This document shows positions 27,619 through 61,100 of a stretch of 64,000 nucleotides of DNA, piece by piece. The stretch's first letter is position 1. Each line of letters begins with the position of its first letter. The translations under genes were made by a program, and so were the position numbers. Origin of the DNA: Lineus longissimus (taxonomy: Eukaryota; Nemertea; Pilidiophora; Heteronemertea; Lineidae); contig NC_088308.1 of assembly GCF_910592395.1 (NCBI RefSeq), positions 18,677,501-18,741,500 on the forward strand. The letters run 5' to 3'. The notes beneath the pieces were generated by a model that was not told the DNA's origin, did no database searches, and worked only from the letters and a program-made list of their open reading frames with translations.

Positions 27619-27764
27619 CGATCAATACACAGTGAGTCGAGTCAAGTGCCTTTACCGAGGTCACAAATTAAAACACCGCCCACAATCTCCCTCTAATGGA
27701 ATAGCCAATACCTCAATATCTTGGTACATTTTTGAAGAATCGCCAAAATGCAACCGAAACAAAG

Positions 27765-30736: not shown

Positions 30737-31945
30737 ATGTCTGGAAATGACAACAGGTTTGATGGATACAAATATCATAATATCAGCATTTAGCAAAATA
30801 AACAAGCCATTTGGGCCTCAGAAAGTTTGATAAATTTACCCTTACGCAACCATGCCAACATGAGTAAAGCTAGAAAACGAAATAGAAAGGCTTCTGCTGA
30901 TGCAGATGTATTCAAGCTTCGGTTTACATGGTTGTGATTACACAAGATCAGTTTGAAGGGAAATCCATTAGAAAATGATTCTATTTGCCTATCATTGTAG
31001 GTGTTTGTTTTTTCGGTATTCCATCAGGCCTGCTAACTATGTTGGATCTGAATTGATTTGATGCTAATTTGTCAGGATGTAAGTAATCAGGTATAAACAG
31101 TCTTTCATTGATGCTTCCATGTCCACAATGCAGTCACCAGAATAGCTGTGATTGCCTAGGGAGTTCAGTGGCATAGTGTTATAGAGTGCGGGCTCATAGT
31201 CAGGCAGTCAAACCCATGCATCACAAGTCCTGGTTGATACATACACAAATAAGCATTTTGAGAAACTAAATACAGAAGAAAGTAATAATGCACCTGCATG
31301 TACTTGACTTATTTGCCAAGTACATGAAGTACGAGAAATAGTCATATTTCTGCATTCAGCCAAACCTGGTCATGAGAGCTGAAATGGGAGACTTGATACT
31401 GTAACATGAAACTGAAGTGGTTCATTTAATGACCAGCTGATGTCAATAATTAGGTTACTACTTTTAAACATTGATTAGTGGACCCTGATGTGGATGTGGA
31501 GTTGGAGACCAAAATCCAGCTCATTTGCTTTTGACCTGTCCCTTAATGAAGAACATTGAGGAATACTTGCCAAAGGACACCACTTTTGGGAACGTTTGAG
31601 AAGAATGTTAGAAGTGGTTAACTCATCCTGCTGGGTTGCATACATTTTAAGGCCATTGGCAAAATATTTGGTTTTGTCGTCCCCTCCTGGAAAAATCATT
31701 CCATTCACGGCATTGGTAGGAAAGCAATATCATGGACTAACGCAGTTCTGGAGGAATCAGAATGACTTGGACACAAGTCTGTAGGAATTGAACAGACAGT
31801 GACATGGAGGTACATATTGGTAGGAATTGGAACAGGCAATGACATGGACAGGCTCAAATCGGTTGGAATTAAAAACAGGAAACTTCATGGACAGTTGCAA
31901 ATCGTTGGGAATTGAAGCATTCAGTGACATTGCTGTTTGGTGGAG
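30737..31945. other. Intergenic region with short imperfect tandem repeat before the GT31 gene
   Basis: No gene is recognised. At 31775-31935 three or four imperfect copies of a unit of about 45-50 bp (GGAATTG-AACAG...GTGACATGGA) run up to the GT31 start codon and may lie in its 5' untranslated region or promoter. Confidence 0.4.
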
Positions 31946-33133
31946 ATGAGGTCAATTTTTCTGCGGTTAGTTCTGGTCATTTTGGCAATGAACGTTTTGT
32001 GTTATTACTGGATGGATTCATTTGTGCACCAGCTGGTGCCCCATCGAAGTGAGTGGAGGAGGCTTGAGTTGAGTGCTTTGGAACGAACTGAAAAACTATT
32101 CAGTTATTCGCGACATGTAAAGACAAATTTGGCTAAAAAGCAGTCGTTGGGAACAGGGGAAGTCCAATCACAATCAATTAAACTAAAACCAATGAACTTA
32201 CAAACTATAGATCAGAAGACAGCTGACATGTTGCATCGAGCATCACTCTTAATGGATGATTTGATTCTGTCACCTCCCCCATGTGAAGACAGTATCTATT
32301 TGCTCATTATGGTCATAAGTTCAGCAAAGAACTTCAATCGCCGTACAGGGATGAGGGATTCTATAAAGGTTAGGCCCTATCGGGGGAAGAGTGTTCGATT
32401 TGTTTTTGTTACTGCAAGAGCAGATGACCAAATGACAGATGCCAAACTTCACTATGAAAGTCTAAGATATCGAGACATTATCCTGACTAATCATAAGGAT
32501 GCCTACCGAAATATGACCTATAAGGCTCTTGAAACTCTAAAGTGGAAGCTGACAAAATGTCAACATGCAAAATTCTTGTTAAAAATGGATGACGATGTGT
32601 TGGTCATCTATGAAAACATTGTAGACTACGCTATAGATTTAGAGTTGAAGAATCTAACCGTTGTCTATGCAGGTATGCGCAATAATGTCAAAGTCGTTAG
32701 GGATCCCAAAAGCAAGTGGTACATGTCCCACAAAGATTATGCAAATGACACTTTACCACCCTACATTAGTGGATATGCTATTTTATTTTCACAAGTCGCT
32801 GTTCGGGAGATTTATCGTGCGTCTTTCCATGTCTCACGTGTTTACAAAATACCAAGGCAGACATTCCCAATCGATGACGCTTTCATTGGAATCTGTGCAC
32901 ACTACGCGAAAATAAAACTAACGAAAATGCGATGGGCGTGCTTGGTCTGGAACTACCTGAAACACGCTGTCACTAAAGAAAAATGTATCCTGGTGAAATT
33001 AAAAGTTGTGCATCAGATACCTGGTTACCGAAGCATGAAAAGGTATTTGAAATGGCTACAAACTAGGAGTGTGCATGAAAGGAATGCTTGTCGAAAGAAG
33101 GATATAACACTTACTAAAACTTGCTTTTGGTAA
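31946..33133 (+). CDS. GT31 family beta-1,3-galactosyltransferase / N-acetylglucosaminyltransferase-like protein
   Basis: This single-exon gene of 395 residues starts at ATG 31946; the frame is open slightly upstream, but only with a TTG. It is a predicted type II Golgi protein: a short N-tail, one membrane anchor (IFLRLVLVILAMNVLCYYW, about residues 4-24), a stem, then a GT31 catalytic domain. Motifs in order are NRRTGMRDSI (the usual R..IR.TW site, altered), FVFVTA, YRDIILTNHKDAYRNMTYKALETLKW, the metal-binding KMDDDVLV, PPYISGYAILFS and IDDAFIGICA. The last usually reads EDV, so the first acidic residue is changed to I. The donor sugar and acceptor cannot be told from sequence. Intronless structure is common in this family. 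It may sit inside a RUFY intron if the exon at 27765 belongs to RUFY. Confidence 0.88.
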   Translation: MRSIFLRLVLVILAMNVLCYYWMDSFVHQLVPHRSEWRRLELSALERTEKLFSYSRHVKTNLAKKQSLGTGEVQSQSIKLKPMNLQTIDQKTADMLHRASLLMDDLILSPPPCEDSIYLLIMVISSAKNFNRRTGMRDSIKVRPYRGKSVRFVFVTARADDQMTDAKLHYESLRYRDIILTNHKDAYRNMTYKALETLKWKLTKCQHAKFLLKMDDDVLVIYENIVDYAIDLELKNLTVVYAGMRNNVKVVRDPKSKWYMSHKDYANDTLPPYISGYAILFSQVAVREIYRASFHVSRVYKIPRQTFPIDDAFIGICAHYAKIKLTKMRWACLVWNYLKHAVTKEKCILVKLKVVHQIPGYRSMKRYLKWLQTRSVHERNACRKKDITLTKTCFW

Positions 33134-33758
33134 ACAGTGCCATTGTATACTATGACAGATAGTTTAGACACCTATTATAATTATCAGATTGGTGTAACCA
33201 AATCAGGACTATTTGGCTCCTCACTGTATAGTGTCCCTTTAAGAAAATATGAATACATGTATAATTTTTTTAGTTTGAAGTGATGAACGATATAAAACTG
33301 AATGATTGACTATGGACTTAGATGAGAAGTTTGCAGATTACTTTGAAAATATGATTTATTCAGGTTTCAGGTATTTTTAAACACTCAAACTTGTAAACAT
33401 GCTCTAATTTCCAATCAATCATCTTAAGTTTGCCACATCACTTTTCATCTCCCATTATAGACTGGCCTGATTAGAAACTCAGCAAAATATGCAATCTCAT
33501 TGCAAATTGATGTAGACAGTCCGGGAAAAATCAATACTGCCTGCACCAACACAGCTAGCGCCATGCTATACCCATGCTACTTGGTACATAAAAACAATGA
33601 TAGCATTGATATCTCGGCTAACTACAAATGAACGATACTGTGGCGTTTCGGCAGCATAATTCACCTGGGGGGAGAATTGACGTCTGATTGTCGATGATAG
33701 ATTATGTTGATACCATAGGATTCTGGGTAATCCAATGATTTCTAGCCCTGAATTCAAA

Positions 33759-36700
33759 ATGGCTGAGGAGACAATTTATCTGTGTAATTTCCGTGTTTCC
33801 GTGGATGGAGAATGGCTGTGTCTGCGGGAACTCACCGATGTTCAGTTGGACATGGCATCTCTCATGCCGATGAATTCCCCTGAAGAGGTCGAAGATGGTT
33901 GGTATTTATGTCTTCGCTAAGTTATGTTTGCATTCTCGTGCTAGCATTAGCAATGTAGCGAACACAGACATGATACATGTATAGTGGATCTGATACATTA
34001 GCTGGTGTACATTTTCATGGATGCTAACAGATTGTATGTATAAATGACATCATGGTCCATTGGTCTCCGTTTGGAATTGTTTATTGAGTAATTAGCATGA
34101 AGCACTTTGCATGGTAACGATACTTTGTAGCAGTAGCATTGTTAGCACAGCTGAGTTGATGCAGCAATATTGAATCTACAATGTACAAATGTATATTGGA
34201 TGTATTAGCCTTCACTGCTGGTTGTATGATCGGAATGTAGCTTGTAATTGCTGTCAATATTGGTTGGGTTAGGGGTTGGTGATGATAGGATAGGGGTGGA
34301 GAGGGATACTCATGAGAAATGTGCTAAATAAAAACAAAGGAGTACATGTCATGATGTGGTGTGTGTTACTGTCAACCATCTCAATTTTATCAGATAGATA
34401 TAGTACAGGGATCATATCGACTAGAGATCCTGCATTTGGAAAGTTCTAGGATGCATCAGAAAATGTACACAGAAATTCTACTAAGTCCGAAGCAGCCTCT
34501 TTCCAGGAACTCAGCAAATTTGCATGTACATTAGTGACATCCAACTTCAGTTACCTATGAAAGGAGGCTGAACATATTTAGCCTGAGATTCACTCCTTGT
34601 CTACCTCAGGTGGCGATTCTCATACTACTGTACTGTGTTTGTGAATTTCTTTAGGCCAACACTCTACAAATGTACTTGGATTTCTTGCTCTGTGGTGGTA
34701 AATAAAAGTAAGCTATGGAATTTACGGGTTTTTTTTCAATTGATGGAGTTATTCCAGTTTCTGTTTTATATCCTCACCTTAGTCCCACAGGCTTACAAAA
34801 TATGCAGGAATGCTAATCTTGAACCTTAAAGGTAGATTAGCTTGAGGTATCGCCCAGCTGTTGACACTAATGTACAGTGTTCTTGTACTTGTACTGATAT
34901 CAGTTTTTAAATGCATCGGGAAATGTACAGAAAGATTCTTCCACCTGTTTGTATATACGTTCATATGTTTACCTGTGCTGCCAGGCGCACTGGAACTCTC
35001 CCAATTTCTTACTTGTAAAAAAGTCCACCTGGTCTGGTAATGAATGGATTGAAAAACGTTTCAAATACAACGTACTTGCTGATCAAGGTATCAGATGTAA
35101 GCTGAAACAGACAGCAAGGGTCGTTCTTAATCATTATAAAAAGTTTCCAGAATGCATTTACTCTAAGGTCCTACCAAAAGAACCCTTTTTATGGTTGCTG
35201 CCCTTACGTGCCCTTTTTGACAAAATGGCACCATGCCCTCTCAAAATCCTCAACATACCCTTCCGTTTGATGTGATTGTAGAACATGATTTGGTCCGCTC
35301 CATGATTATCGAATATGCATCATTTGTCACCACCGGCTATCGATTCTTTCAATTGCTTGATTGAGCACGACACTGCCACAATTTATTGGTTTATCCAACA
35401 GATGCCTGTTGTAGTTGCCATGGCAACCAACAAAGGTTGCCTGCCATGGGAATCGGAGAACTGTATGTTTACATATAAGAAAACTTTTAAAGATGATATC
35501 TTGCCACAGTTGCAAATGCCATTTTGCTAAGGTCGCCGTCTGTAACCAAGTATCAGTTTCTAAATTAGGTTTGCAGTAGAAAGCCTCTGTTCTGAGGTTA
35601 TGGCCAGGGATTGAGTCACAGGATCGACTTCAGAAGTTTGAACTAAAATATGGTCGGTTTTATCTACTTTGTTCGCTGTTGCGAGGACTACATAGCCTGA
35701 CATTTCAGCTGCGCAACAGACGGAGCCATTACATTCCTAATTTGCCCATTCATCCAGCCATCCTAAACGATCAATCCACCTTAACTTAAGGAATATCTTT
35801 GACCAGAATTCTGTCCTTGTATCTTTTCAGGTCGAGACCCCATCACAATCGAGAGATGCAACCTGCTCAATATGGCCAAACTAATAATCAAAGAGTTGAT
35901 TGACTCGTCATTATCCCACGGCCGCATGCTGGACGATGACCATGTACCGCTCCAGCAGTTCTTTGTCGTTTTGGAACACGTGCTCATTCATAGGTTAAAA
36001 CGTAAGTTGTTGTTGGCCCTTTAAGTTTAAAGGGGGACTATAGGCAGGAGCAGACAGGCTAATTTGGCCATCTTCAGGTGACTCATATACACAGTAAGGG
36101 CCCTGGGTCATGTCAGATTCAGCACTAAATATACAACCGTCTATCATTTCGACATACTGTGAGATGTGAAAGGCCCCTATTGGCGATTTCATGTTACTTT
36201 ATCTTGCCTGCCTAGCTGCTGCCTATATAGTTCCTTTAAAGGAATAGTAGAAAGAGTTATTATCAGGGACAGGGCTGGCATAATTCATTGATTTCGGAAC
36301 TGGTGCCATTTTCAATTTCTCAACTCTTCAGTTTCTTTGCTCGATACTACATTTTTACTTAGCGATTGATTGAGTGATTATGGTAACAGTTGCTATGGTA
36401 ACAGACCGAGTAAATACACTTCAGTGAATGACACTAGAGAGGTTGCCAGAATACTTGATGTGACTCCTGATTCCTGAGGTGTTAAGTGGCAGGGAGAATG
36501 TCTTGATTGAGATTGGAATGGAGTCTCAAGTCTGATCTGAGATTATCCCTTCATTTTTCAGCGAAAAAAGGAATTCTACGAGACAAAAAGGAGTTCTTTG
36601 CAGTGCTAGAGCAAGTTGAGAAGTATCTCCCAGAGGCTGCCGATATAACCACAAGTGTTAGAGATATGCCAAGTATAAAGTATGTTCTGCTGAAAGCGTT

Positions 36701-39700: not shown

Positions 39701-42700
39701 TAAGCATTAGTTCAGTAGCTCAGGCACCAGATGGAGCTACGGACCATTTCAGATCTATTTATATTATGTATGCATGTAGCCGATTCTATTGTGTTCAAAC
39801 TTTGTCAGCTGTTTAAGTTTCATTTTAAGAATGCATTGCATCCATGTAAAGAAAGGGCCCTTGATTGTCAATGACAGCAAAGAGTCTGTATACACCTTTC
39901 CAGAAGTGAGGCGCTGAGTGTCCGAAATAGTGATGTCATAAGGGGAAACTATATTATGTGACAAAGTCTGGTCTTGGGGAAACAGATGCAACCGAAAAGC
40001 ACCCAAATAGCTGAAGTTACGTGTGTTAATCAGTGGTGATCCACTGAAATTCTTTCAAGGCTTTTGTGATGACAATTTCTGAAAGTTTTCTGCTTCTGTT
40101 TCTAGCTGACAAAAGAAGATATAGAAATCGAGAGGGGGACTTACCAGTCTGCCAGAACTGGCCTAGATTCCATGTTTGCTGATGCACAGAAAAAATTGAA
40201 TGATGAAACACAAATAAGACTGGTAGGTTGTTCTTATAGATGGCGAAATGGCAGACAGCATCAGAAAACTCTACAGAGTCACGTCGATTGTGACTTCCAC
40301 CAGAATTCTAGCATACGTTACAAGCGGTGCTCTCTGTTTCATTTCCTGATGCTGTCTGCCAATACGTCATGCTATCATCCATATCCGGGTGTGATCTGGA
40401 AGCCGGTGCTCTGACCTCTATCCCACTGATCTCCCTCTATAATGTACATGAGTAATGCATTAGAGCATACATTTCATCAAAGAGGAACCTCCAATCACGA
40501 TTTGGGAAGTTGACCAGAGATTTTGGCTCACGATTATTGTTCTTAAAAAATTCCAAGGACTCCATCCTTAAATATGTCATTTAATCTTTTCAGGATGTCG
40601 AAAAAGAACTTCAACTTCAAATTAGTATGAAACAAGAAATAGAGATGGCACTGCGATTGCTGGAAAAAGATATTCACGAAAAGCAAGACACGGTTGTTTC
40701 ATTACGAAAACAACTTGAAGAAATTAAAGAGATAAATTTAGAGATGTACAACAAGTTACAGGTAAGGATGAAGTCTTATCAGGATAAAAAACTGCAATGA
40801 GCGAATTCATTTTAAAGTGATCATGTGCAGCCACAGAAGATAAATGAAGGCTATTTCGGTCTTTTTCTTATCGCTAATAGCATCAAGAAGGATTGATATG
40901 TGAAATATACTTTCAAAGAATTGATACTGTTTTATTTTGAAAACACACATAACGTAAATGAATCTAACATGCTTGACATTTTCTCAATTTAAAAAGGTTG
41001 TTAAAAGGACTTTTTTACCAAAATGTTATCATGTCTCACAAATACTTAGGAAGCCCACATGTACAATACTATTTTAGTAGAGAAATAATAACCTGGAATC
41101 AGTTTTTGAAATGAGAGGTGGACTGAGGGCGCACGCCACCAACATTCGCTTCTATATCACGGTTTTCCTTTCATGACATATTAATGCGATTGTTTTGTGT
41201 GCGCTCTTGGGGCTCTGAGTTTTTCATAAGTTTATTCTTTGTGATAAAAATGAAATGTCACCTTGAATTTGCGAACTTACCCTTTTTACCCTCTCCCTAT
41301 TTCATATATTTCACGTGTGGGTTGAATTAAATCCTGAGGCGAAATTAAGTATGCTTATTGTGAATTTTGTTGAAACGTTACCAAAATAAGAGTGCTTTGT
41401 TTTGGACTTATATCTGTTGTCTTTTGTATCTATAAATTCTGTGTTTTTCAAAAATCCTTTCTGGCATTGCCTTTCCTCCTGATCAATATCTAAAGAAGCA
41501 ATTGTGATCTGAAAAGAAACCCTTTCAGAATTGTTGAACATTTTGAATGCTACATTTAGAAAATAAAAATGAAGGGAACAGTATGTTTATCAAACATTAA
41601 ATCATATTTGTGAGTTAATTTTGTATCGAAAGGTATTGTTCTTAATGTAGCTTAGGGTGTATGTGCATAGTTGATTGGACAAAATCTCTGCCAGAAGCAG
41701 GATGAAGTAAGGCACACCAAAGAAAGATATGAATTGGGTTTTGGTCTCGATTTCTGTTATTTAAGTGAGTTATAAACTCTCTGATCGCACTCCATCTTGC
41801 AACAGGCGAGCTGCAGCAAAACAAAAAGATTCAACTTGTGATGTGTAACTGTCATTTGTCACCTGAATACCAGACATTGCAGTGGCCACGCTGATGTTTG
41901 CCCACCTGACAATACTTTCAGCAACTGATTGATCCATCCTTGCTTCTAGTTAAGAGTGGAGGCATGATTTTTAAGGCAGGCGGCTTGTTGACTTTCTGAT
42001 ATTAAAGTGTTGCTTTTGGCATTTTTGGTCATAATGTTAAAAAAACTCAATTTGAGGGACCTTCCAGGATGAGAACTTTACTGAAATGTTTCTGGATGTT
42101 GGAATTAATGACAAGCTGTGTTCATACACTCATTTATGACCTCAGGCTGTCGTAAACCTGTGAGATAGATTTACAAAGTCACTCGATGAAAAAACCTTTG
42201 ATTTGTCGGAGTGACATGACATCGCTGAGGTGCGATAACGTCACCATCAGTAGGTGATGCATGGGAAGCTGGTGGGAAACTCTGAGCAGTTTCATTTGGG
42301 GCTTTAGACTGTGCTGGTCCAATTTGGTCAGCAACACTGACTTCTAGAGATCCGAACACTCGACTTTGACTGCACACCTCTGTTTCTTTGACCTTGGGAA
42401 GTGCACTTGACTCTCACTATTTCCTATGTTTTTCACTGCGCTCACAAACATCGCTTAGTGTTCCTTCTACATGACTTATGCTACCTTATCATAAAATATT
42501 GGTTTTGGTTCAATGAAAAACAACACAATAACTTATCATTGAGTGAATTTATTCATATGAAAATCATGTACATGTATATATGTCTTTCAAAATCATAAAG
42601 CAACATATGGTATATGTGTCGTCAGTGGCGGCGGAAAATAGCAGCCTGTTGTCGTATTAAAGATACAGTATAAGCATACATAGTTTTCTTTGATGTTCAT

Positions 42701-45700
42701 GAATAATTACATATTAGTCCTTTAGGGGCATTGGCAGTCGTAGAGGGTACACACGATCACATGTTTTTCATCATAATTCATGCCCTTTATGATAAGCAAA
42801 CACCCTCCTGCAAGATGACCTGTGGTACCATACTTGAAAAAAGCAATGCAACACAAGTTGGCTTTTATAAGCAAAGAAACCCAATCCTTATACAGGCAAA
42901 AAAGCATTCTGAGGCAACCTTTGCAAAGACGGTACAGTTCAGTAAAATAAATATTTGATACCAGTTGATTTGGATTCGCACTATGTGTGGAGCCGTTGTC
43001 ATGCCATCAGCTTGAATCACTTACCAAAAAAGTGTGATTTGATTCATAAATTTTCAATCACATTTTTAACTTCTTTATATCGTGTTATCAAGATTGATGC
43101 GTCCTAAATACCATGCGGTTATTTTGTTGCCAAAGCTCTTTCGTTTCAAAGGAGACTCTCTTTTCAATTCTATAAGGTAGATTATTTTCAGACAGCGGCA
43201 TCACCTGTGCGAGATTTAGATAACTGTCCATTTCATGAGAAAATGACACTGCCCTTAAAAAGCCTAAAAAAGTTTTTTGGTATATTGCTTAATAAACATG
43301 TTAAATCGCTCGTTCTCCATTCTAACGTTTGAAGCATTTGTTTCAAGTCAGTCTTTGAAATGTTCGATGTTTCTGACATCCGGTCAGCCATGTTATCAAA
43401 ATCAGCAAATGTTGACCCCCAAGTTTAGCCACTCAATCGCAAGAGACTCTATCCAAAGAGATCAAATTGAGTCTTAAATTGCATTCGACGAACAAGGTCA
43501 GTCAATTTGAACAACCCCCAAGAGTCTTTTATAAGCAAGGACTAATTCTAATACTGTCAGCTTTAATTTTCGGAAATAATCAACAGTTTACTTCAGCTGT
43601 GTCCTTAAAACCATTCAGACACTCAATATCATTGAAGATGGGTGCAAAAATAGAGGGTTTGACGCTACTTGCTGCATAACTAAACGCTCCTAATTTCTTC
43701 AATTTAAACTGAGTGTCACCGAAAAGACGACAGCATGTGATCCTTGGAACAATCACCTTCGTATTGTAAAATTTTCAAATCTTTATCTCCATATCAACAG
43801 ACGTCACATGATTTCATCTCCATGCTTGACTACATCAATTCTCCGATGAAATTTGCAGAGTAGACGAAAATTAAGGCGGAGAGCCAGTTTTCTTCCTTGA
43901 AAAATAGCTTTTGAAATGAGTTTTATGACATTGCAGCTGCACAGCACTTCAGAAATAAATGGTATCAATTGCTAATGTCCTTGATATCGTATCAAGTCAC
44001 ATATCCGCGGTTTGGGGCGTTGTTGTAATTGATCAAGGATCACCTGCAGACCCGGGCAGAAATCACTGATGGGAAGTTCACCTGCAGACCAGAATGCGAC
44101 AGATATCTGGCTTGGGGGCGACCGGTTGAGCTCGCTCGTAGACTTTGTGGTATTAGTCTTTCTTGATGTCTGTCCCAGCCACCTGGAAAAACAATGGAAT
44201 GGTTTGCTTGAGTTGATTGTTGCTGTTGGGGAATGATAACTTGTTAGTATTAAGACCCCGCCCTGGGCAGCGGATACTGAAATATTTAGCTTGGTTGTGG
44301 TTGAGGATTCAAATTTGTTGCATTGCTGAAGCAGTTTTCTGGAGATGCTGTAATTGTAAAGAGATGTTCTCAAATGGTTGGTTTTAGATTAAGTTGGATG
44401 ATGACGGAATTGGTGGGTTGGCCCCGCGTCCTGGTTGATCTGATGCTGATCTGATGTTCAATTGTTAAGGCCCGCTTCCACTGCATCGGCTTACTGTCAC
44501 TGTTTTGCTGCTTTGACAGGCTTTTTGGTCAGTTACAGTTGCTGAGCCAATACCCAACAATCTCGCAAACTTACATCAAATTCAATCCAATGCCTGTGAA
44601 AGTGACAAGGTTTCCAAAGTTTTTGGTAATTTCCTTTAGGCATTGCGCTATCTTAACAAACCCAACTTATTTTTTTACACTTATGGGACAATATTAATGT
44701 TTTAAGTGCATGTGGGAGGGCAAGTTTAATTCATTATGAAAACAGTCACATAATGACAATATCGTTTCACAGCTGTGTCACTGGTCTCAAGAGTTATTTT
44801 GAAACTTTCTTCGGCATTATTTCATTAAACGTACTAAAACTTTTCTTGTGATTTGATTTGATTATCAAAATCAAGTCTACTTTTGGGGTACTTTTTCATC
44901 GATTGTCCAACACTTTGCAAGTCTGATACTGTAATAGGGCCAAATACCTAAAGTAGGCAAACTTTTGACTTTGATGATATTTGCTATAGAACAGCCATGT
45001 TTTTCATAATCATTAGATAAATTATGTCATACCATAAATATTTTGCCCAATTTCTTTGGTCCTGTCTACAAGAAGTGATTGTAGGGCTCCTTGAGTGGGC
45101 ATCGGATTTGCAATACGACCATATCTGATGAATCGAAACATGATGGGAAGGTCTCCAGTTGAGACACCGGACATCTTGACTCGAATCTTGGACAGCTTAG
45201 ATCCAGGAATCCTACCAAATGTTTTCAGTTTTGGTGAATAATTCAGAGGGTTTGGGGCCAGAAGGTCGCCTCGCTAATGATTTTCACATACATATCAAGT
45301 AAAGGGGATAACTTGGAGTGTCAATAAGGTACCACTTCTCAGTACCAACTCCTTATATATCACCTTATAATACCAGCAGTCCATATGACATTAACCTAGT
45401 GATGAATAATCAATGCTTCCATTTGGCACCATTTAGTTCAATATATAATGGGATTTTTTGCCCCTCAGCCCTCCCCCACAAAAAAAATCTGCAAAATCAA
45501 AAATCAGAAGAGTGGGCAAGAAAGAGTGCACACCAATACCTAGTGTGAAAGGCTGCTGAAAATGCCTTTGAGGAACGGTATAATATGTCTTGTATATAAA
45601 ATCACAATTTAAACCAACTAGCTTAGTACAATCATTCTAATTTGCCGTTTCCGTCAGCCAACGCTTTGAAGTAATTAGGCTTAAGTATATTTGCTTTTAT

Positions 45701-48700
45701 CAACCCCAGGCGTTAGGATTTATATCAAATATCAAATGCATATCTCAATCGAAAAATCATCAAAATGCACGGGAGCTCGAAAATAATGTTGCATTTCGTA
45801 ACTTTCTGGTTTGAACCCTGGTGAGATTGTCTTTACTATCAGACGCTATCTGAAGACATAGTTTTAACATGATTAAAGTTAATTCTTTTCTTAATGAATG
45901 TTCCATCACTTGTGTGTAAAATTCATTTTCTCTAAAATAAATGGTGACTAATTCTTGCAATGACTATACAATACTGGTCACAATTGAAGAGGTTTAGTAC
46001 TTACGTTGAAAAGTGCTGACATGATTGCGACATCACTTCGGCAGAAGCTTCGACTTCGCTGAACCTCATCCTGAAATGATTAGGAATGAAAAGTGTAGGA
46101 GAAACATTAGCGACCAGTGGCTATGCTCTCAGCTATATGGACAAAAAGATTCGCCTTTGACAATCAATATCAAATAACATGGTCGGCCTTCTCAGGACAG
46201 GCCCATCATGATGTGTCTGTTCAGTAATGAGATTGGACATTCAACTACCATATCAACCTCTGCATTCTTTGAACTCTAACTCTGTCAAACTCGGCTTTGT
46301 GGGCTGTCCTTTCGATCAATTGATTTTTGAGCCAATGTTATTTCAGATTCCAAGTCAACAAGAGAAAACCCTTGAAAAAATTAGCCTGCAGACATATTGA
46401 TATACACTTTAAGGATAGTCATGCTCAGGCGTGTCTTGCTACTGATGTATGGATCTTTTGAGAAGCCGATTTTTTGGGGAGGGTAATATTTTGAGAAGCT
46501 TATTCTGGTTACTATGGGAATTCAGCTGTTTCATTTTTTCATGCTCTATTTGTCCAAAAGTATTTTTGGATTGATTGCCGCTAACTTGCTCTCACTGGTT
46601 GATTGCTGTCTTGCCCTTGGTCACAATTTATGTGCTTGTGTCAGGTATGAACCTACCGACCACACCCAACACATTAAGACATAATGACCCATAGACAGAA
46701 ATATCAATTTGATATTATTGAGTGAGACAATCGCTAGCAAAGAGAGGTCTCCTATCTCATGACCCCTTTATGAAATAAATTGTATAGTAATTCACAAGGT
46801 AATAAAAGTTCTGTTTCCCCACCCAAGGGAGGAACTCCTTAATAGACCATTTGATCAGTTCTAGCAGTCGTGTTCATCTCTGTGGGCAAAATATCACACT
46901 CCTTAATCAGAAATTGACAAAGTTGATGTTTAATTATGCTTCACTTTGGCAGGAATTTGTATTATATTAGTTTGAATTCCAAAATATCAAATTTATATTT
47001 GAATACTATATGACTAGGTATCAAGAATGGGAATCGAAGTTTTTAGCCAGACGAGGGTCAAAACATGGATCAGAAAGATCAGTGGTAAGCGTTGACCAAC
47101 TGAAGACTTTGAAAGGCTTTTATTGAGAACTAAAGAGAGTAGCCAGGTAGGCCATGATAACTTGCACCAAGTCGGCCGTTTAGCTGCCTCTGCTATCTCA
47201 GTGCACAATGGCACTCTTAAGTCAAATTACACTCGGGTCTCAAACTGCAGTCTATCACATGGAGGTCACTACTTCATCCCGTAGCTCCTTCCCCACTGGT
47301 ATCCATCAATGGTACTCCAGGACAGGACAGGCACCGACAATTACTGGCTACAAGGACTCCCTGTGTGCAATCACCCTGTCACCTAGAGATCAGGCTCTAA
47401 CTAGATGACAGTTCCCGTCAATTTCCAATTTAGAAATTTTTCAAAATTCGTCACCCATGGGTTTTTCAAAGTTGATGATGAATTAAACTTTTGCATCCAA
47501 CCATTCAGAACTTGTGGAATTGTTCACAATTTTGTATTCAAATTTTATATGTTGCAAATCTAATTATAAAACTGAGCTAGGAAGGCAATTTGGAACTGGT
47601 CTGGGGATAATTTATCCATCTCAAAGGAGCCAACATTGTCAGAATTTGATTGTGACTGACAAACTCTCCAAAGCTGTACGTGATGGAATCATATTTTTGT
47701 ATTGTTTATGACACCTGAACTTGGACCTAGTAGGTATAAAAACCTGTCATGGTATAGGACCGCCATCCATCCAGGGTCTGGGGTCTGTCTTGGGTCCTCA
47801 GAAGTGCTCAGATTTATGCATGAGAACTTTTTACTGGGTCCTTCAAAAACCTGTATGTTTTTCAGCGTTTTGTGTAAGGTTCCCTTTAAATTTTAACTAC
47901 CGGTACATGTAAATCTCAATATATTGTGGTTGGATGTAAGGGATGAGCTTTTCAGGTACTCTTCCTGCATATGCCTTCAAGGAGTGGTAATATAGCTTAG
48001 ATATTAACGATTTTGTGGGAAAAAACTCATGATAAGACATATCCTACCTGAATTATTTTCATCACAGCACCAGCGCCTTCTGGTGTCAAGGCGCATTTTC
48101 CACTATTCTCAACATTTCCAAGCGATGCCCATTGTCGCACTTTACCCATGATTTCGTTGTTGTTCATTTGCGATCGCTTGCCATTTGGTCGCCAGCTCTG
48201 ACTGAAATGGAATCCCTGACTGTGGACTGTCTGCGTTAGGGTGAAGGTGACCATCAGTAACACCAGGCTTTTTGTCACAATAGCTTCCTGCAAGAATAAG
48301 GAATCAGGCTGTCTTGTAAAAAAATTACATATATGCATGTTATTTCTCCTCTGTAACTGGTTATATCATTGTTAACGGCTCGGACTGAAATTTAATCCCT
48401 TACATTGGACTATCTGCTTGAGTATAAGAGTGACCATCAGTAACACCAGGCATGTTACAATGAAAATAAAGTGGGCAAAGTAGAATATAGACAAGCAAGT
48501 TGTTAATATTGTGATACTGTAATGAATATCGGGCAATTAAAGGGAGAAAATAGGCAAGCAAGTTGATGCCAATTATTTCCCAGTTACTCAAAAATGGTTT
48601 GTCTAGGAGGACTATGAATACATGTAGGTCTGTTATGGATATCTAGAACAATGTAGAATTATAAAGTATAACCTGTTTTAGGTGTGCCTAAAGAACATTT

Positions 48701-51700
48701 CTTTTTGAGAAGAACACATTTCGTCAAAATTTAATCAACTCCCGTTCATGCTTTGTTAGAATTTTGTCAAATTCCTATTTGCGTCCCATTTTATTTTTTT
48801 CTCCCAATATTTTAGCATAACCTTTGGAAGTTCATTATCTCTTGCAAAAAATTAAAAGTGTTAATTGATCAAAAAAATTACTCCGCATTGAATATTCGGT
48901 AACACTGATAGGCTTAGAGTTCCAGTCTTATTTGAACAGTATGCTTCAGGTCAAGGTATATTAAATGTTTACCTTGGGGCTAAGATTAAATATTAATCTC
49001 CAATGTTTTGGAAACTCTTTAATGGCATTGTAAAATTACCAAAAAGAGCTTATATATTTTTCATAGGTTCGTTTTGATGTTTCCATTTTAAACTTTGTAC
49101 CAGGGAATTAACGATTGTTTTCTAACTAAGGTGCATCATAAATTTTGTCTATTGAATATGAAGTTCTAATTGAAACTTTGGTATGAAAAATATTGCCCAA
49201 TTAAGTAAGATAGATTACATATATATATATATGTGTTTATCGTATCAAAAAGTTTAGAAATATGCAGCCTCCTACTCAAATTAGGAATGAGAAAATATTC
49301 CTTGCAAATCTCTCTTCTGCGAAGGCGAGGTGTGGTCAACTGATCACACAGATAATGACCAGGTTAGCTGTTATGAGACTGAGAAGAAATACATCTGTCA
49401 TTCACTTGGGAGCGGATTGTCGTGATACGAATGAACTAACATGACCAACAGAGTCCCTGAGCGCAATGGCCTACTTGTTAACATGTTTCAGCATCTGTCT
49501 CTATCCTATAGGGTCTTGCCTTCTAACCCTGGCGTGGTCATTGCTTCATTTTCCCAATGATCGAGCTCAAAAATGAGTCAATGGGGTATTGTATCTGCTC
49601 CTGCTCCTTGATACCAAAGGTCATCTTGACCATCAGGTGAGCGGTTGTTCAATTGCATGGTTCTCACACTGTTAAATAGTGTAAGAGGGTGCCACATGTC
49701 CCCAAACGGACCCGCATGAAGCATTTCCTGCCACCTCAAAATGGTCAATTCTGCTTCAAAATCGTTCCAATGACTGCCCTTAACCCAAAAATATGTCATT
49801 TTTTGGTGGAGATGCATGTAGCAATATCGGATACATTTCAGATTCTGTTGGCTGAAATTCTGAATAATTTCAACAACAGCTCCCCGAATTAGGCTAATAG
49901 ATGAGAAAAAACCCATGTCTCCAATATAGGCTAAAAGATAACAAGGTGAATGGGTGTACGAATACAAAAGACCTGGGTTTTTGACACCACCTTGTTGTCT
50001 CTGACTTTGTTGCCCCTCATATGTGGAGAGTAAATTACAAAGAGATACCTCTGGAAGTTCAGAATGACCAAAGGCATAAAACCTGAAGAGGCAATTAATA
50101 TTGTGAGAGCATTGGACCAGACACAGGTCGGTAAGAAGGAACAATCTAATAAAAAAAAGCTGCCATTACAGTTGCGTTTTAATCAAATAAAATTTTATCA
50201 ATTTTATCAAATTTGTTTCATCCAGATAAGGATTTGTGGTGGCCTGTGCCATCTGTCTAGGGAAATTATCTCAGTTAGATATGTGGTTTCGCCTTGACTG
50301 ATGACATGGGGTTCCCTAGATAAATACTAAATGCTGTATGGCCGTTCCATTACGATTGTAACGATGATCATGATGAGGAATCAGGGGTGATCGAGTGGAG
50401 AAAATGAACCAATTCTAAACTTCACCCTGTGGTCTGCTCATGTTATTTCCCATGACATGTTGCATCAGTATGGTTGTCGTAATTATTTGATAAGGGAATA
50501 TTCAGGCAGGCGTTAGGGGGTCAAGCACAGAACTTTTCAAAAGATTTCTTTAAAGTTTCTAAAAGACTTTTCTGTGAGAGCTTCGAAATCTGTATGACTA
50601 TCTCATTTTTGAACCAATGAGGAAATTGGCTTCAGGCAAGAAGACTTGTTCTATTTGTAGGATAACATCTTTAAAAACTTTCTGCAAATCTTTCCAAAAG
50701 GTTTCTGTAAAGTGACATCAGAAAGATTCTTCAGAATCCACTTTTGATAGATGTTCATCTTGTTCGTGTGTCAATCAATCACAAAGTTGCTATAAGTTTT
50801 CTTGTCATTACAAATGACAATAGCTCTGAAAGGTTCAAAATACGACAGAAAAAATGGACTCACCATGTTTATTTTGCGTTCGGCGCTCACTATCCTAGAA
50901 TTAGATGTAATCAGAATTTGATGATTCCCTTTGTAAGAACGTTATCCTTTGCTGTCAGCCCAGACCAAGTGAAAGTATTTCCGTGTGACCTTCAAGATAT
51001 AGGAGACTAATTCTTCCCTGTCTAATTAACATAACTTGCATATTCAATTAGCGCTAACTTGTTATGTGCTCGCGGTAAGGCCCCGCCTACTCCTTGTGTA
51101 TGTAATTCCAATACAGAGATCTTGGCATCACTTCAGTTACCACATTTTGCTGTTCCGATGATTGATCAACCCCCCTTCCGTGGCAGAGCTTGGTTTCCTC
51201 ATCAAGTTATCTATGAATTGAGCATTCATTAAAGTTTTGTCAATGGTGAATCTGATATTAGTAAAATGTTGGATCTGATGGGGGGGGGGGGGGGCGGCAT
51301 AGTTCTTCACTCTCTGCTGCCTTCATTTCATCTGACATTGTCATTCAAATCTACTTACATCGTTCAATTTGGATAGATAATCGGTTGGCTAGAGAAATCC
51401 GGTATTGCACATCCCCATTCGCCCAACACCTCCAGCCTACCTAGTCTACTTAGTTGTCCAATGGTCATGATTTGATGTTCCGGCTTAGCCTTTGGGTCAA
51501 TTTAGTAGTCATTGATAAAGCGGTCTTAGATTGGTGGAAATGGAGTAATTTCAAAATACTGCAGGTGTCATATATTTGCATTCCCACAGTCACAAATCAA
51601 ATCATCACCATGCTTGCTAACATCTTGCAGGATTTTCCATTTCTGTGATCTTTTGGAGAAATTTTCATAGAATGCGTTTAAGATTTAAGATATTAAACCT

Positions 51701-54700
51701 CAGTGATCAGCCACGACAACAGAGGATCTTAAAGCCAAGCTGCTGTATTCTCACCTTAAAAGCCTTGACAGAGGGCTGCATGTGACAAATCTTACGCAGT
51801 TTCTGAACCCCTCCAATGGATTGCTTGTTGTAAACCTCTCTCTGCCTCCTTGAGGTAGGTTCATGATTAATAAGGTTTAAGGTGTTCCTGCAACTCGGTT
51901 AAGGCGTTTTTGATCAGCGGGTACAGGAGCCCAATGTTTCAATTCATATTGCAGTAGGTATTCTCCATCTTCATTTAACAGAGAGGGTGTCCTACTGAGA
52001 GAGGTTTCACTGTAGTTATGTCTCTAAACAGCGATGAATTTCACTGGGTATTTTCATTTACACGTCATTGCCAATTCAAAGACCAGAAGTGCGTAGCCCT
52101 TTGCACCTTTAAACCACCTGCATTCCCTGAAGATGAAACAGTCTTTTCCGTTGAATTGCTCTGTTATTGATCACTTCATCTGAGCGTTCTTCATCAAAAT
52201 GATTAAACCAACATCAGAGGAACCAGCAGGTTTCAGAGTGTGTTACAGAGTGTGAAGAGAAAGGCCACTCCTTTAATTGCCATTGTAGCAACTTGAAATA
52301 ACATGGAAAGAAACTGATGAAAGGTCATGTGGTTCCCCCAGTCTGGGATTTCTGATAATTTGTATTCATATGGGTTATCCCCATAAGGGCTAATCAAATT
52401 AGCCTTGGGGGTGCAAAGAGCTGACCATCACCAAGATAGAATTGCTGACTTATTTGATCCAACCGTTTCCTGTGTCCCCAAACTCAAGTCCCCCGTGTTT
52501 GTTGTGTCCCCAGTCCTTCAGTCAGGGACTTTCCTTGTGATCTCATTCCCAGATTAGCTGGACTTGATTTGTCTTTATCAACAGTGCACCCTCTATGACG
52601 TAATCAGCAGTCGGAAGTAAAATTTCACGAAACAGCAAGAAATAAAATGACCATCATAACTTGTAAATTACAGTGGAACCTCCCTTAGCGGACATCTCAC
52701 TATTAAGGACACTAGTTTTGGTCCCAAATTTTTTGTTTCCATTCAATTTGACCTCTCTAATCTGGACACCTCTATTAAGGACAGCACTAGTCAGTCCCGA
52801 AGGTGTCCTTAATGAGAGGGTCTACTGTATAGAGATTTTAGTGTTGATCCATGCGGCATAGAACGTTACTTGAGAACAATTTAGCTGGAGCATGTAATAT
52901 TGAGAAAGAGCTGATTAATCCTTGGCTAAATTAGGCTAATGCTCCACAGAAGACCTGACTGTGACAACTAGGGAACTAAGTGACAAATTACTAAGGATTT
53001 GGAGCCGATGGAAAAGACAGACTTGAACAAACTCATGGGAGTTGACTGATCATGCCAGTGAAGTCAAAGTTTTTGGGGGTGGATTTTTTCTCTGGGGAAT
53101 ACTTTAAGGGACTTTTGGGAAACACCATGGCTGTCGGCCTAATCTGTATGGTCTCAAACCGTTACAGATCAAAGAAAGGGAAGGTTGGCTTGTGTTTAAC
53201 GTCCCCCGCACAAAGAGAGAAGTCGATGAAATCATGAAGGTTTTCGCAACATCAAATTGTGGACTATTCACTGTCTTGAAACAGGTGGTGACCATCGGTT
53301 GATACATTTTACGTACAGAACTTCTCTCTCAGTGGACGTGAACTCATTCTTCTGGAGAGATACGTTGGTTAAGGTGCTAGATGTGATTTTATCGTGGCTC
53401 ATGGATGTCTCCAAGAAAAATTATTTGGGAATGAAAAATAGGCGTGTTCCTTTCATGCAATGAGTTGGTGCTAAACAGACATGAAATCTAAATCTTAATT
53501 TGGAAAGAACTTGTTTGAAGTCCATTTGCATTAAAATGATGCGGAAGCAATCAAGAAAAAGGTGTATAGAAAAGGGATCATTAATTGAAGCGACGTTCAG
53601 TTTAACGCAACACAATCTCTCCTGATGATAAAGCGGGAGCATGGAAATTGTGGAATCTATTGCCAGGGTTGCTGCCGCCGTTTGGTAGTTCTGTTATAGG
53701 AAAGTGATTGGATGAGATCTCTTTAGCACTGAACCTTTGAAGTGCAGACTTAACCCCTTCAGGTTGTAGATAATCTGTTTGAATATTTTGCCAGAAACAA
53801 GGGCTTTTTGTTAGTCATTGTCAGTCAATGCCCCCCCCCCCAAGTTAGGTCTTTTTTGGGGGGATCCAGAGTTTGCAACACCGGCAGTTTCAAGGCTGAC
53901 CTTGGCCTCCATGTTGATTAGCAATGGTAAATATAGTGGTGGATTTGAATGTCCTACATGCTGCATATTATTGCAAATAAAACATCTTTACTCAGGAGGA
54001 TTTTTTTTTCATTTGCAATTAAATGAATAATTGAGACAGATAGTGAGCGCTAAATAACTGTGCTTTAAAGAGCATTAATTGCCTAAATTAAAAGTAAGCA
54101 GGTGCTATAATTGGCAACAACTTCCAAGATGCATCGACAGCGATTCACGTCAGCCGATCGGCGGTGCTATTGATGTCAGGCTTGACAAGTGTGCATGGTG
54201 TGAGAGGATGGGTTGGGTAATCTTGCCGTTAGTCAAGTTGAAGTGTTTTCAACAGCAGTGAAATTTGTATTGAACAGAAGTCATTCAACATCACGAAGTC
54301 TCCTGTAGCAGTATGCTTGGTGCAGTCTTCCAAGGTCTTGGCTTCCCGTCATACTCAAGACATTGTTATTACTATCACCCGGTAGGCGGTGGTTTTGCAG
54401 GTGCCCACGACAAGAATCATCAGTGATTGCCCGAATTGACCTGCCAAATCAGACCCATCGACTACTTGTTTTACAGCAGACCAGAGATCTTTTTGTCACA
54501 CACAGCAATATTTTGTCTGCAGTTCCGTATTTCGAAAAGCACATATTTTGTTTTCAGACCAATGAAGACTCTAAGAAGACTCTGAAACACACCTTACACA
54601 GGGCAAATGCAGAAGAAGATGAAGACCTGTAACCCCCCATTGACTCTGCATGGTGATGTCTTTATAATTGCATCACTAATGCCACTCGTCTCTTCACTAT

Positions 54701-57700
54701 CTTTCAGGCCAGTGAGAGCTCCCTACAGCATAAGACACAACTTGTTGCAAAGTTGGAAGAAAAGGTCAACCAAATGTCTGCGATGATGAAGGATTTAGAA
54801 GCTCGGTGAGTTCAGTGTGTGAAAAGTCATCGTGACGGAAATTATTTGTCCCCTGAACATACAATTCAGTGTATGTCAACATATCAGAATAAATGAATAT
54901 TCTCTTCATATAAGTTTCTTCCAGACGCAGTGTTTCATCAAAAACATAAATATCAGAATATAGAAAAATAGTTGTGGATGACTTTAATGCTGTACCAAAA
55001 AGACGTTTTCTATGCAAATTAATTTTTGAAAGTATTGATGTTGTTTTCTGTGATGCAGAATTTACATGAACATTTCTCACCAAAACAAGCAAAAAACCTT
55101 TTCAAAGATACAGAGAACTACCTCTCTTGGCACACACTTCTGTAAGCTAGACATCCTCAGTAAAATTGTTCTAAAACAAGAAACCAGATATGTGCATGCC
55201 GTTTTGTACTTGGTTGCTTGCAGCTTTTTTCATTACAAGAACCAGAACCAGACACTAAGACACATTTCAATTCAATATTGCTTCTTCTCTTCCTGCTTCC
55301 TATACTTCTTCTTGAAGAAGGTAAGGGTTGAGTTCCAGCGTCTTCGACATCCTTCGAACATTACCATAGGTGTCGCCAGGGGAGAGGAACGAGATTCAAA
55401 TGACGCCCCTTGTTGAAATTTGCCTTGAAAAGCCCTTAAGCTGAAATACAATATCAGATTTGAGCGTGCCCTTGTATTTTTTGGAAAACAACCCCTCCCA
55501 TTGGAAATCCTGGCAACACCCATGATTACGTCTCATTCCTTTCTGTTATTCTTCACAACTTTATAGAGGGCATGAAAAACATTAGCTCGAGTTTTGTTTC
55601 CCAAAGTCTTGTGGTATTAGTCACTCACAGTTGTTTGTTGTGTTTGGAGTCTCGTCCTTCAGTTATGATGCACTTAAGCCCAGAAGATTTCAGTTATGAC
55701 ACATTTAAGCCCAGATTAGTTCAGTTATGACACACCTTCCGTTATGCACACTTAAGCCTGGAATGGTTCAGTTATGTTATGTACACCTTCAGTTAAGACA
55801 CACTTAAGCCCACAATAGTTCAGTTATGACACACCTTCCATTATACACACTTAAGCCTGGAAAGGTTCAGTTATGACATGTACACCTTCAGTTCTGACAC
55901 AATTAAGTCTGGAATGCCGCCAATGACGAGAGGCTAGTAAGCCTGCAGCTGGCCATGTCGAGTACTTTGAGAAACTAGGTCATGTTGGCATTCCCAGCTA
56001 AGAGATAAAGGAAACACTTAAAAATTATGAATTAGTTTATTCAATAATGATATATCAAATATCAAATAATGACAATACTACAGTCTTCTCGGGTCTTCCC
56101 TTCCGGTTATCTGCCTGGTGTTTCTGAGAATGATGTAGCATAAAAAAATGTTGAACTAAAAAAATGTGCTGTTTGAGTGAATGATCAGTTGTGATAAATA
56201 TTTACAAGAGTCATGTACACTGTAGTTTTTTCAGGCTGATTCTGTCAAAAGATTTTGGTACTAAAAGCATGTCTCCTCTTTTTTGTGGGACGCCCTGACA
56301 CTTGCCGTAGATGGAAGAGATTTTGAACACTGATGGCTTGATACAGAATCCATTTGTCTATGAGGGCATGACCACTTAGCTGATAATAGCAACTGACTAA
56401 TGGGTTATTAAACTCTCAGAGTTTTAGCGCTGTCAGTCCTCATGCTAGCATATTGTCAAGATTTATAGTCTGATGTCCCAAGCAGTTTCCCTGGCTCTCC
56501 TGTGTCCCTTCTCGCTCCTGCCACACTCACTTGAGCCTCAGGCATACCCACTCCTGGGTTGAGAGGGATTTTGTCTTTCTCAAGGATCAGTTTGTGGTTC
56601 TACCAGGGAGTCAAACCCACAGCATAACTTGCAAACTGCCGTTAAACTTGCCTGATTCCCATCAAAGGCAATCACAGTGAGAAATGCCATCACAACAGCA
56701 ACCACATCTTCTTGCTAATCCAGCCTTTTTCACAATCATTCATGACAAGCATGATCTCCATGATACAAATTTGGAAAACCTGTTTTTTCCTCGCTCTCTA
56801 GGTGAGGCTGGTCTTTGACCAATCGTCGTACTCATCAAAAGTGTATTGGTGTGAGACAATCTTCGTGGCCATCACCACATTGGCATGCAGTGCTGCATTG
56901 GTACGGTCTGCTGTTTGAAGTCTGTGACGTTTGCTCTTTGGAGAATGCACGGTCAAGCATTTGTGGGCTAGAAAAAGGTTGGAAAAAAGTCAAGGTTGTT
57001 GTCCAGTATTCATGTGATGTTTTTTTTCTCTCCACCTGATAGTGTGTGTTTGGACACCTCTTTGTAGACTGGCAAACTTTTAGGCGTGTCAGATTTTCTT
57101 TGGCCCAAATTTGTTGGACGTGCTAGTAGAACATCCCAATGAACGTCAATGAATGCTTAGACTCTGGAGGCATTTATGTAAACATGTATTGATATATTCA
57201 TGTGTTCTGTAGCCTTGTTAAATCCCACAGAAATATATTTTTTGAATTACATTTGTGAGGCAAGAAGGACGAAGCCGTTAGCATCATCTCCCCCTTGCCC
57301 TCTTATCCACTTCAATACTATACCACAGTACTTAGAACATTATTGCCATTCTGCATCACAGAAACCAACACCCAATATATTGAAAATCATAAAGCCGGTT
57401 GCATGTTGCCCGTGTGGTTATTTCTGGTTCATCTGCCTAATACGGGCTTGCTGTTTTCATTCAAGGGGGATGACACTGCTCACAGTTGTCACTTGATTGG
57501 CGGTTTATTGGGCCTGAAAATACAATTTTCGACACTGTGATCGATGTCTTCGGCCTTGAACAAAAACGGCATGTCCCGCATCAATAAAGTACATGTTGCA
57601 TCAACGACCTTGGCTTCTTACTGCTACTGCTCTATCTAACGATCTCATTGCCGTTTCAGTGGATTGTGATGTGTTAAGTGTAGCTGAAGTTTGTTTGAAT

Positions 57701-58141
57701 TCTGCACCATTTTGTTAATTATGTCACTGATGTTCTTTTAAGAGACTAATGGCATGAGCCAGGCGGGCAAGATTATTACTGTCTCGTAGTATATCAGAAC
57801 TACTCACGCTTGTATAACTGATCTTTTATTCCTCTGTCATACCTGGCCCATCAATTGGTCACCCTAGCTCCTGCCTATAGTCCCTGATTTAACCCTTCAG
57901 TGTTTGCTGGCTGTTTGGGGTAACATCATTACAGTACTCAACTTCTTTGAACCACACTCATCTGTTAAAGGCAGAGTTGATTGGTTTTTGCACAGACTGA
58001 ACTTGGGAGCACTAAACGAGAAAGAAATCAGCAGTCTTTTATGATAAATTTGTAGAATTCTAACCTTGGGGAGATCACTGCCTTTTTGGCTCACCGTAGG
58101 GGAGTCTATACAATACCGCAGTGTCCGTCGTCCGTCGTCGT

Positions 58142-58188
<47 letters not shown>

Positions 58189-61100
58189 CGTCGTATCCTA
58201 GTTCAAAAACAGTGGCACGTTTCTTAACTGCTAGGCCTATGAACTTAAAACTTTGTACACATGACCCCCTAGGTCAGATGACCCGTGACACTAAATTTCT
58301 GTCCGATCTGATTCTCTACTTGGCCACCAGGGGGCCAAATGTGGATATCTAAAAAGTGTGATATCTCGCTTATTAGTGACTTGTTTTCGATGAAACTTTT
58401 GTTGTAGGTACTCATAGCAAATATACATCTTATATCATACGGGTTTTTAATTTGACCTACTTTTCAAGGTCACAGAGGTCATATGGCGTAAATTGGCCGT
58501 TAGAGTGTAAACTATGGCACGTTTCTTAACCACTAAAGCTATGAACTTGAAACTTGGTACATATAACCCCCTATATCACATAGCCTCTGGTGCTGAATTT
58601 CAGTTTGATCTGATTCTCAACTTTGCCACCAGGGGGCCAAAAGTGGAAATCTAAAAAGTGTGATATCTCGCTTATAAGTGACTTGTTTTCGATAAAATTT
58701 TTATGGTAGGTACCCTTAGGAAGAATACATCACATATCTTACGGGTTTTCAATTTGACCTACTTTTCAAGGTCACAGAGGTCATATGGCGTAAATTGGCC
58801 GTTAGAGTGTAAACTATGGCACGTTTCTTAACCAGTAAAGCTATGAACTTGAAACTTGGTGCATATAACCCCCTACATCAGATAACCTCTGATGCCAAAT
58901 TTTGGCTTGATCTGATTCTTTATTCGGCCACCAGGGGGCCATAATGGAAAAAGTAAGAAGTGCAATATCTTGCTTATTTTTAGTGATTCGTTTTCAATAA
59001 CATTTTTATGGTAGGTTCTCCTAGCAAGGATACATCACATATCATATGAGTTTTTGATCTGACCTGCTTTTCAAGGTCACAGAGGTCAAATGGCGTAAAT
59101 TTGTCGTTTGATTGTAACTATGGCACGTTTCTTAACCATTAAAGCTTTGAACTTGAAATTTGATACACATGACTCCCTACGTCATGTAACCTCGGACACC
59201 GAATTTCGATCTGATCTGGTACTCAACTCAGCCACCAGGAGGCCAAAACTAAAATAGGTAAAAAGTGCAATATCTCGTTTATTATTGACTTGTTTTTGAT
59301 GATATTCTTATGGTACTTACTCCAAGCAACGATACATCACATGTCATACCGACTTTGGTTTGACCTATATACTATACATGTACAATGTGTCTTAATCTGG
59401 ATGAATTACAAAGCACCAAATATCTATACGGTGAGCACAATGGCCCCTGGCCGTTTCATTCTCACTGTTGTTGTTAGCTTTTGTCAGGCTTTCGTTATAT
59501 TGTTGCCTTTCTTTTTTGCATGTTGCCCGTGTAGACTTAAACAGTGTAATATAGAAAAAACGGCAGCCGAAGAAACCGCCCGAAAACTTGGTCAGAATTT
59601 GGCTGAAAAAGATATTAGACGGTAAGGAAGTTAGCCACTAATTGAGCATGGTAGATTTAGGCATTTGTCTGGGGCTTCAATTCTTGGTAATCATACAGAT
59701 CCCATGATCTCATTGTAATTACCGGTACAATATGTGCTTATTATGTTGCCAGACCAATTTTTTTATCTTTTGCCCACGATCAATACTTGTTGATAATGAT
59801 AAAATCACTTTAAACCTTTGGAGCATAAATCTGCTATTTTCCATCTTACACTCGAGGTAGAATTTAAGGAACACCCTAGATGCCATAGCTGGAAATCTTC
59901 ATCTATTCTCTGCACTCTACAGGGTGACCTAGAATAATTTTCCCGTGCACAATAGAATTCTATTGTGTATCCATTGTGTGAGGGAAAATAATTCTGGGCC
60001 ACCCTGTATATGTTGTCTTATGGGTGAGCATAGTGTCTGTGAAAACTTCATTTTACTGCACTGTCAGTATCTATCCAGATTCAGAACTGCCATTTGAGGA
60101 GAGAAAAAAATTGAAGTAATGCAAAATACATTATACATGTACAGAATATAGTGACAATGATCAGTTATACTAGAGTTTTCTTATAACATCTATCTTACTT
60201 CTTCAACAGACAATGCTTGAACTTGGTCAAGTTTGTACGCTGGATAACATTTAGCCTTTTGGCATCTGTTAGTCCCTGTAGGCTACTCACTCTCAATTTT
60301 AGATAAGCCTAAAATACCCTGAGGAAGACTAGGTAAATGAGGATACATCCTCCTGGAAGTTACTAGATTATCAACTACTGAAATATTCATGGGGAAAGTA
60401 TTCTTGGTTCTTGAGTGGTCGGGGCAATGACTGGTGGATTTCTAAAAGAACGACTGGTCAGTTGTTGGAGTAAGAAATTATTTGTATGGTGAAAGAAAGG
60501 AATTGTTTGGCGAAAGAAAAGAATGGTGAAAGGAAAAGAAGATATTGTGTGGTGAAGGAAAAGAAAGAAATTGCTCGTATGTTGAAAAAGAAGGATGGTT
60601 AGTGTTTCACAAAAACAACAAACGAGCCAAACCAATTAGTCACATGAGATCCAGTGCATCGTTGTGATGTCATTTGCTGGCACTGTTACCACGAGCTGTG
60701 CTGTCAAACCACGCATATGTTTGGGTGGAGTCATAAATTGAAGCTTACTTTTCTAACCTCTCTACTGTCTCTTTTTACTTGCAGTTCGGCAGTCGAAACT
60801 GATCTAAAAATCGAAAGAGAGTGGCGGGCAGCGTTACAGAGTAACTTGGAACAGGAAAAGGAAATTGTTGCTCAGCTAAGCGCAGAAATAAACAAGTTAA
60901 GAAATACTAGTAAAGTGAGTAATGTCACCTTTAGAGCTTAAAGTTCCTTTTCATGATATCTACACAACATATGAACTGCTCATTCATGTGCTTTCATTAC
61001 TAACAACTAAGTACCTATTGTTGGACAAGGCTTTCTCTTCTGGAATCTTAAACTAGTCACGTGTGCTTGAACTCCCAAACTATATATGTGTTTTAATATC

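Follow-up and report, generated by a model that had tools for sequence, protein, structure and literature searches.

Corazonin-type hormones are cousins of the hormone by which reproduction is controlled in vertebrates. In current nomenclature (Thiel et al., 2021, PMC8557429) the peptides formerly called gonadotropin-releasing hormone (GnRH) 1 and 2 of Platynereis dumerilii are corazonins, by sequence and by receptor activation, and annelids have several paralogues of the superfamily. Loss of Platynereis crz1 delays maturation and reduces growth (PMC6969523). For the bootlace worm Lineus longissimus, a heteronemertean, Thiel et al. combined a transcriptome with larval peptide mass spectrometry, and corazonin was among 18 precursors with confirmed peptides. 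Here we describe a gene within a 64,000-nucleotide stretch of contig NC_088308.1 of this species (the window). With a probability of about 0.92, four minus-strand exons in it make up the gene for a single-hormone precursor of the corazonin type (the lophotrochozoan 'GnRH' type), which corresponds to NCBI LOC135489852.

The translation of the four exons is identical at 112 of 112 residues to an annotated protein of 112 aa, 'uncharacterized protein LOC135489852 [Lineus longissimus]' (P0001), and a match of this extent excludes a chance origin of the reading frame. The ATG at 50866-50864 together with exons 2 to 4 gives 339 nt, whose translation is exactly P0001. The exon borders are AG/GT and all three introns are in phase 0, so that exons 2 to 4 stand as they had been given in the initial annotation (48287-48048, 46070-46005 and 44182-44153). 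The parts of the gene are:

50864 to 50866, minus strand: start codon, which is the last codon of exon 1; a GTGAGT donor comes next, and what precedes this codon in exon 1 would be 5′ untranslated region
48048 to 48287, minus strand: exon 2 (residues 2-81), with the rest of the signal peptide, the hormone, the cleavage and amidation site and the first part of the associated peptide; 100% identity by tblastn
48183 to 48218, minus strand: mature hormone of 12 residues (25-36), read from the sequence; pyroglutamate and Asn-amide ends predicted
48174 to 48182, minus strand: GKR (residues 37-39), the amide-donor Gly and the dibasic cleavage site, read from the sequence
48093 to 48095, minus strand: Cys66 of the associated peptide (residue number from the alignment, coordinates counted from exon 2)
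46005 to 46070, minus strand: exon 3 (residues 82-103), coding sequence matching P0001; it holds Cys91 at 46043-46041
44153 to 44182, minus strand: exon 4 (residues 104-112 and the TAA stop), coding sequence matching P0001

Exon 2 encodes a hydrophobic stretch, and the hormone motif, the amidation site and the associated peptide with two cysteines that the initial annotation had pointed out are present in exons 2 to 4. The single hormone is N-terminal, directly after the signal peptide (as judged by eye), and fits Q-x-[YFI]-H-[FY]-S-x-x-W with W at position 9. It is followed by Gly and a dibasic site, where amidation and cutting are predicted, and the cysteines of the associated peptide, C66 and C91, are 25 apart. 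Maturation would comprise removal of the 24-residue signal peptide, cyclisation of the N-terminal Gln to pyroglutamate and cleavage at KR with Gly-dependent amidation, yielding the mature amidated hormone, for which the calculated [M+H]+ is 1472.68 and the [M+2H]2+ 736.84. Once secreted, it may activate a G-protein-coupled receptor of the corazonin clade. By analogy with Platynereis crz1 only, one might guess that in Lineus it would tie growth and sexual maturation to energy balance.

A direct search of about 5.8 billion proteins (E up to 10, four candidates) returned two matches, P0001 and a 73-aa JGI fragment, P0002, which are 83% identical to each other. The hormone and GKR agree at 15 of 15 positions, and the remainder, aligned with one gap, agrees at 42 of its 53 ungapped positions; this pattern of conservation centred on the hormone and its processing site (p = 0.0497, one-sided Fisher test) is suggestive rather than strong. 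Beyond the exon 2 donor P0002 continues as …IIQ-VGHSI and read-through of the Lineus DNA gives IIQ-VGYVLS, as would be expected of an uncut genomic reading. A profile was built from P0001, P0002 and seven typed-in peptides of annelids and molluscs, that of octopus among them, and it retrieved four proteins from 20 candidates: P0001, P0002, the GnRH-related precursor of Octopus vulgaris (P0123, Q8T8D2; E = 2.0e-3) and the GnRH precursor of Acanthosepion lycidas, which we take to be a cuttlefish (P0124; E = 5.6e-3). In a single BLASTP comparison P0001 and P0123 share 19 of 87 residues (E = 6e-9). Hormone excluded, 31 residues of the associated peptides of P0001, P0123 and P0124 form a gap-free alignment that keeps both cysteines in register, the spacing of 25 recurring in both cephalopod precursors compared; the alignment score was reached by 56 (P0123) and 2 (P0124) of 20,000 shuffles. 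As close relatives, the two cephalopod precursors count as one comparison. Searching the window by tblastn with P0001, P0002 and P0123 at E < 0.1 gave only exons 2 to 4 and a decayed copy of part of exon 2, and no further hormone copy. Within 1 kb 3′ of the stop there is one A[AT]TAAA, the ATTAAA at 43567, which is too weak to be called a poly(A) site. Rfam gave no match in the window at gathering scores, and a bacterial promoter scan of 50800-51300 found one site where 1.1 were expected, a bacterial model being uninformative for an animal gene.

The hormone gene lies in an intron of a RUFY2-like gene. The L. longissimus protein P0003 (RUFY2-like isoform X2, 672 aa) was reproduced exactly by a plus-strand model of 16 exons, the sole model found when every border was allowed to shift by 40 nt about its tblastn match. 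The whole hormone coding sequence, 44153-50866 on the minus strand, is inside its intron 10, and the antisense position in a 13.9-kb RUFY intron put forward in the initial annotation is borne out. The host features, all from this model, and the exon copy are:

40594 to 40761, plus strand: RUFY2-like exon 10, which borders the host intron upstream
40762 to 54707, plus strand: host intron 10, 13,946 nt
54708 to 54805, plus strand: RUFY2-like exon 11, which borders the host intron downstream
48378 to 48456, minus strand: partial copy of exon 2 of the hormone gene (signal peptide to FSQS) in its intron 1, 79 bp, 80% identical

As judged from its sequence, the hormone belongs to the GnRH/AKH/corazonin superfamily, and by spacing and current naming it is of the corazonin type; the label is given because of W at position 9, the identities with mollusc and annelid peptides, the naming of Thiel et al. 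and the QAYHFSNGW of Platynereis crz1. The initial annotation had spoken of a GnRH-type neuropeptide, and while the superfamily holds, the name becomes corazonin-type under the 2021 nomenclature. Ten published peptides (sequences from PMC5592718 and PMC5024129) were compared with the hormone without gaps. The seven distinct mollusc and annelid peptides in the table of PMC5592718 share 5-7 identities with it, and all seven have the Q-x-[YFI]-H-[FY]-S-x-x-W frame with W at 9, whereas in oyster AKH (pQVSFSTNWGSa) the W is at 8 and one position in ten is identical; vertebrate GnRH2 also has one identity in ten. That the hormone is instead a GnRH/AKH-type ligand acting on an AKH/GnRH receptor seems to us very unlikely. 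The mollusc and annelid homologues are indeed named GnRH in older literature (PMC5592718), and the sole Pfam match is the AKH family. However, 'true AKH' peptides are 8, 9 or 10 residues long (PMC5024129) as against 12 in Lineus, and the TALEN (transcription activator-like effector nuclease) target of Platynereis crz1, as we translated it, reads QAYHFSNGW, with CRZ1 activating a corazonin receptor (PMC6969523). Several observations nevertheless weigh against the corazonin-type gene as we describe it. According to Andreatta et al. (PMC6969523), the subfamilies are not separable by ligand sequence alone. The AKH model PF06377 is below its cut-off (21.3 vs 22.9 bits for P0001; 21.1 for a 120-residue form), and at E up to 10 Pfam listed nothing else. 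No protein beyond P0001 and P0002 was matched in the direct search of the protein database, and the retrieval of P0123 and P0124, at modest E-values, is partly circular because octopus and other mollusc and annelid peptides had been typed into the profile. The start exon is an NCBI prediction, and the corazonin of Thiel et al. is likely, rather than certainly, the peptide encoded here. In NCBIfam P0001 had no match and P0002 matched two bacterial models, both irrelevant and below their cut-off; the PDB sequences gave one chance match (E = 1.1).

The corazonin-type reading leaves three further points to be weighed, of which one is the first exon. The initial annotation had placed it at 51755-51781 on the minus strand (MQPSVKAFK) and obtained a precursor of 120 residues; exons 2 to 4 of that precursor were retained, and its first exon is absent from P0001, which begins M-EAIVTKSL with the M codon in exon 1 and the junction to exon 2 directly after it. 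In the range 48300-60000, ATG codons with a phase-0 GTRAG donor no more than 150 nt further on were listed mechanically, which gave 12 candidates, four of them with one common donor. Both starts are among the 12, and therefore the choice rests on the NCBI model, whose predicted first exon we adopt over 51781-51755 and which gives a compact signal peptide by eye. We rejected 51781-51755, which is probably not an exon, as the annotated protein starts elsewhere. Its in-frame ATG and phase-0 GTGAGA donor would allow it to serve as an alternative start for the 120-residue form, and the donor itself gives no ground for exclusion, but one of 12 mechanical candidates that is missing from the annotated protein makes a quite improbable exon. 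The exon copy at 48378-48456, which had not been mentioned in the initial annotation, lies 183 nt from its counterpart in exon 2, as measured between the two starts, and differs from it at 16 of 79 sites (Kimura two-parameter distance 0.236). Its frame is still open over 26 codons, as a live alternative hormone exon would need, but R and then a stop follow, two codons beyond the copied part and inside the would-be hormone; W and GKR are missing, the substitutions are spread evenly over codon positions (5/5/6), and no AG acceptor was seen by eye at the homologous place. We give a live exon next to no chance and read the copy as a dead partial tandem duplication that would have arisen in intron 1 and then decayed without constraint. 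As to the nesting, we take the position inside RUFY intron 10 as incidental. The possible shared regulation with RUFY that the initial annotation had raised found no evidence; nested genes are widespread and frequently run in the opposite direction, amounting to about 6% of the genes of D. melanogaster, 2.1% in C. elegans and 0.5% in human (PMC3786989). A functional arrangement, in which RUFY transcription through intron 10 interferes with the hormone gene or supplies it with enhancers under joint regulation, is in our view highly improbable. The antisense geometry is real, and one such nested pair, tim2/2mit, has been preserved among Drosophila species and in the honeybee, while four lepidopterans do not share the arrangement (PMC3786989); against it, besides the frequency of nesting, RUFY intron 1 also contains two other open reading frames, which suggests that large RUFY introns are permissive. 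Slightly less probable still is joint regulation in which the long RUFY intron, when transcribed, acts as a gate for the antisense hormone gene, the nested layout having been conserved among nemerteans on that account. RUFY was not found in papers on corazonin, gonadotropin-releasing hormone or nemerteans, among the matches listed.

Some other features of the window were seen on the way. RUFY intron 1 (isoform X2, 27964-35830) contains a galactosyltransferase-like open reading frame at 31928-33133 (plus strand, PF01762) and an antisense ion-channel one at 29080-29760 (minus strand, PF00520), and the RUFY2-like gene seems to host further nested genes there. At 33759-33896 (plus strand) there is a match of 78% identity to the N-terminal residues 1-43 of P0004, a RUFY protein of Tubulanus; this is probably an alternative first exon of RUFY, the Lineus isoform X2 starting at 27765. 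Just upstream of RUFY exon 1, 26254-26577 (plus strand) and 27416-27667 (minus strand) carry a near-identical repetitive translation (FRYIASSLPVVSLHVAVVSLHG...), one on each strand and some 1 kb from the other, and resemble an inverted repeat built of low-complexity units. Open reading frames on the minus strand at 4700-7213, 9636-10310 and 18847-21921 contain secretin-family seven-transmembrane, polycystin channel, PKD and REJ domains and probably belong to an adhesion-type receptor and polycystin-1-family gene or genes. A coiled-coil open reading frame at 1932-2906 (minus strand) matches the ODAD1 central region (PF21773) just above the cut-off.

Taken as a whole, the hormone gene is real, well-formed, ordinary and already annotated, and its peptide has very probably been published. 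The suggestion in the initial annotation that the exact peptide may be undescribed is doubtful, since a corazonin of L. longissimus has already been confirmed by mass spectrometry (Thiel et al., 2021, PMC8557429); HFSQSW was not found in the main text of papers, among the matches listed. What is gained is a fixed structure for the gene of a corazonin-type hormone in a nemertean, with the proposed first exon corrected, and a name that can be given to the 'uncharacterized' NCBI entry LOC135489852. The picture of the family is unchanged, and the dead exon copy would be one unsuccessful step of the sort of duplication through which the superfamily diversified.

Among the closest described systems, the corazonin of Thiel et al. 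comes from the same species; the LOC135489852 protein, identical to our translation over its 112 residues, is still labelled 'uncharacterized' by NCBI, unlike the named corazonin. The cephalopod GnRH precursors resemble that of Lineus in the hydrophobic leader, QxxHFSxxWxP, GKRS and the two cysteines 25 apart, and differ in having NG before W, where Lineus has QS, and 19 residues fewer from GKR to the first Cys. The peptide of the leech Helobdella robusta, pQSIHFSRSWQPa (PMC5592718), has 7 of 11 identities with the Lineus hormone, the highest of the ten peptides, and shares H-F-S-x-S-W-x-P with it, lacking the Asn before the amidation site; S-W in place of G-W, which the initial annotation had taken as a difference, is already found in this peptide. 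Arthropod corazonin (pQTFQYSRGWTNa, PMC5592718) has the aromatic residues at 3 and 5, W at 9 and the Asn-amide end in common with Lineus, but only 4 of 11 identities, and is 11 residues long rather than 12. In Platynereis CRZ1/GnRHL1 the QAYHFSNGW frame recurs and exon 2 likewise carries the mature peptide (PMC6969523), although there the coding part is described as starting with exon 2, whereas in Lineus the ATG codon itself is in exon 1; the functional data come from Platynereis CRZ1.

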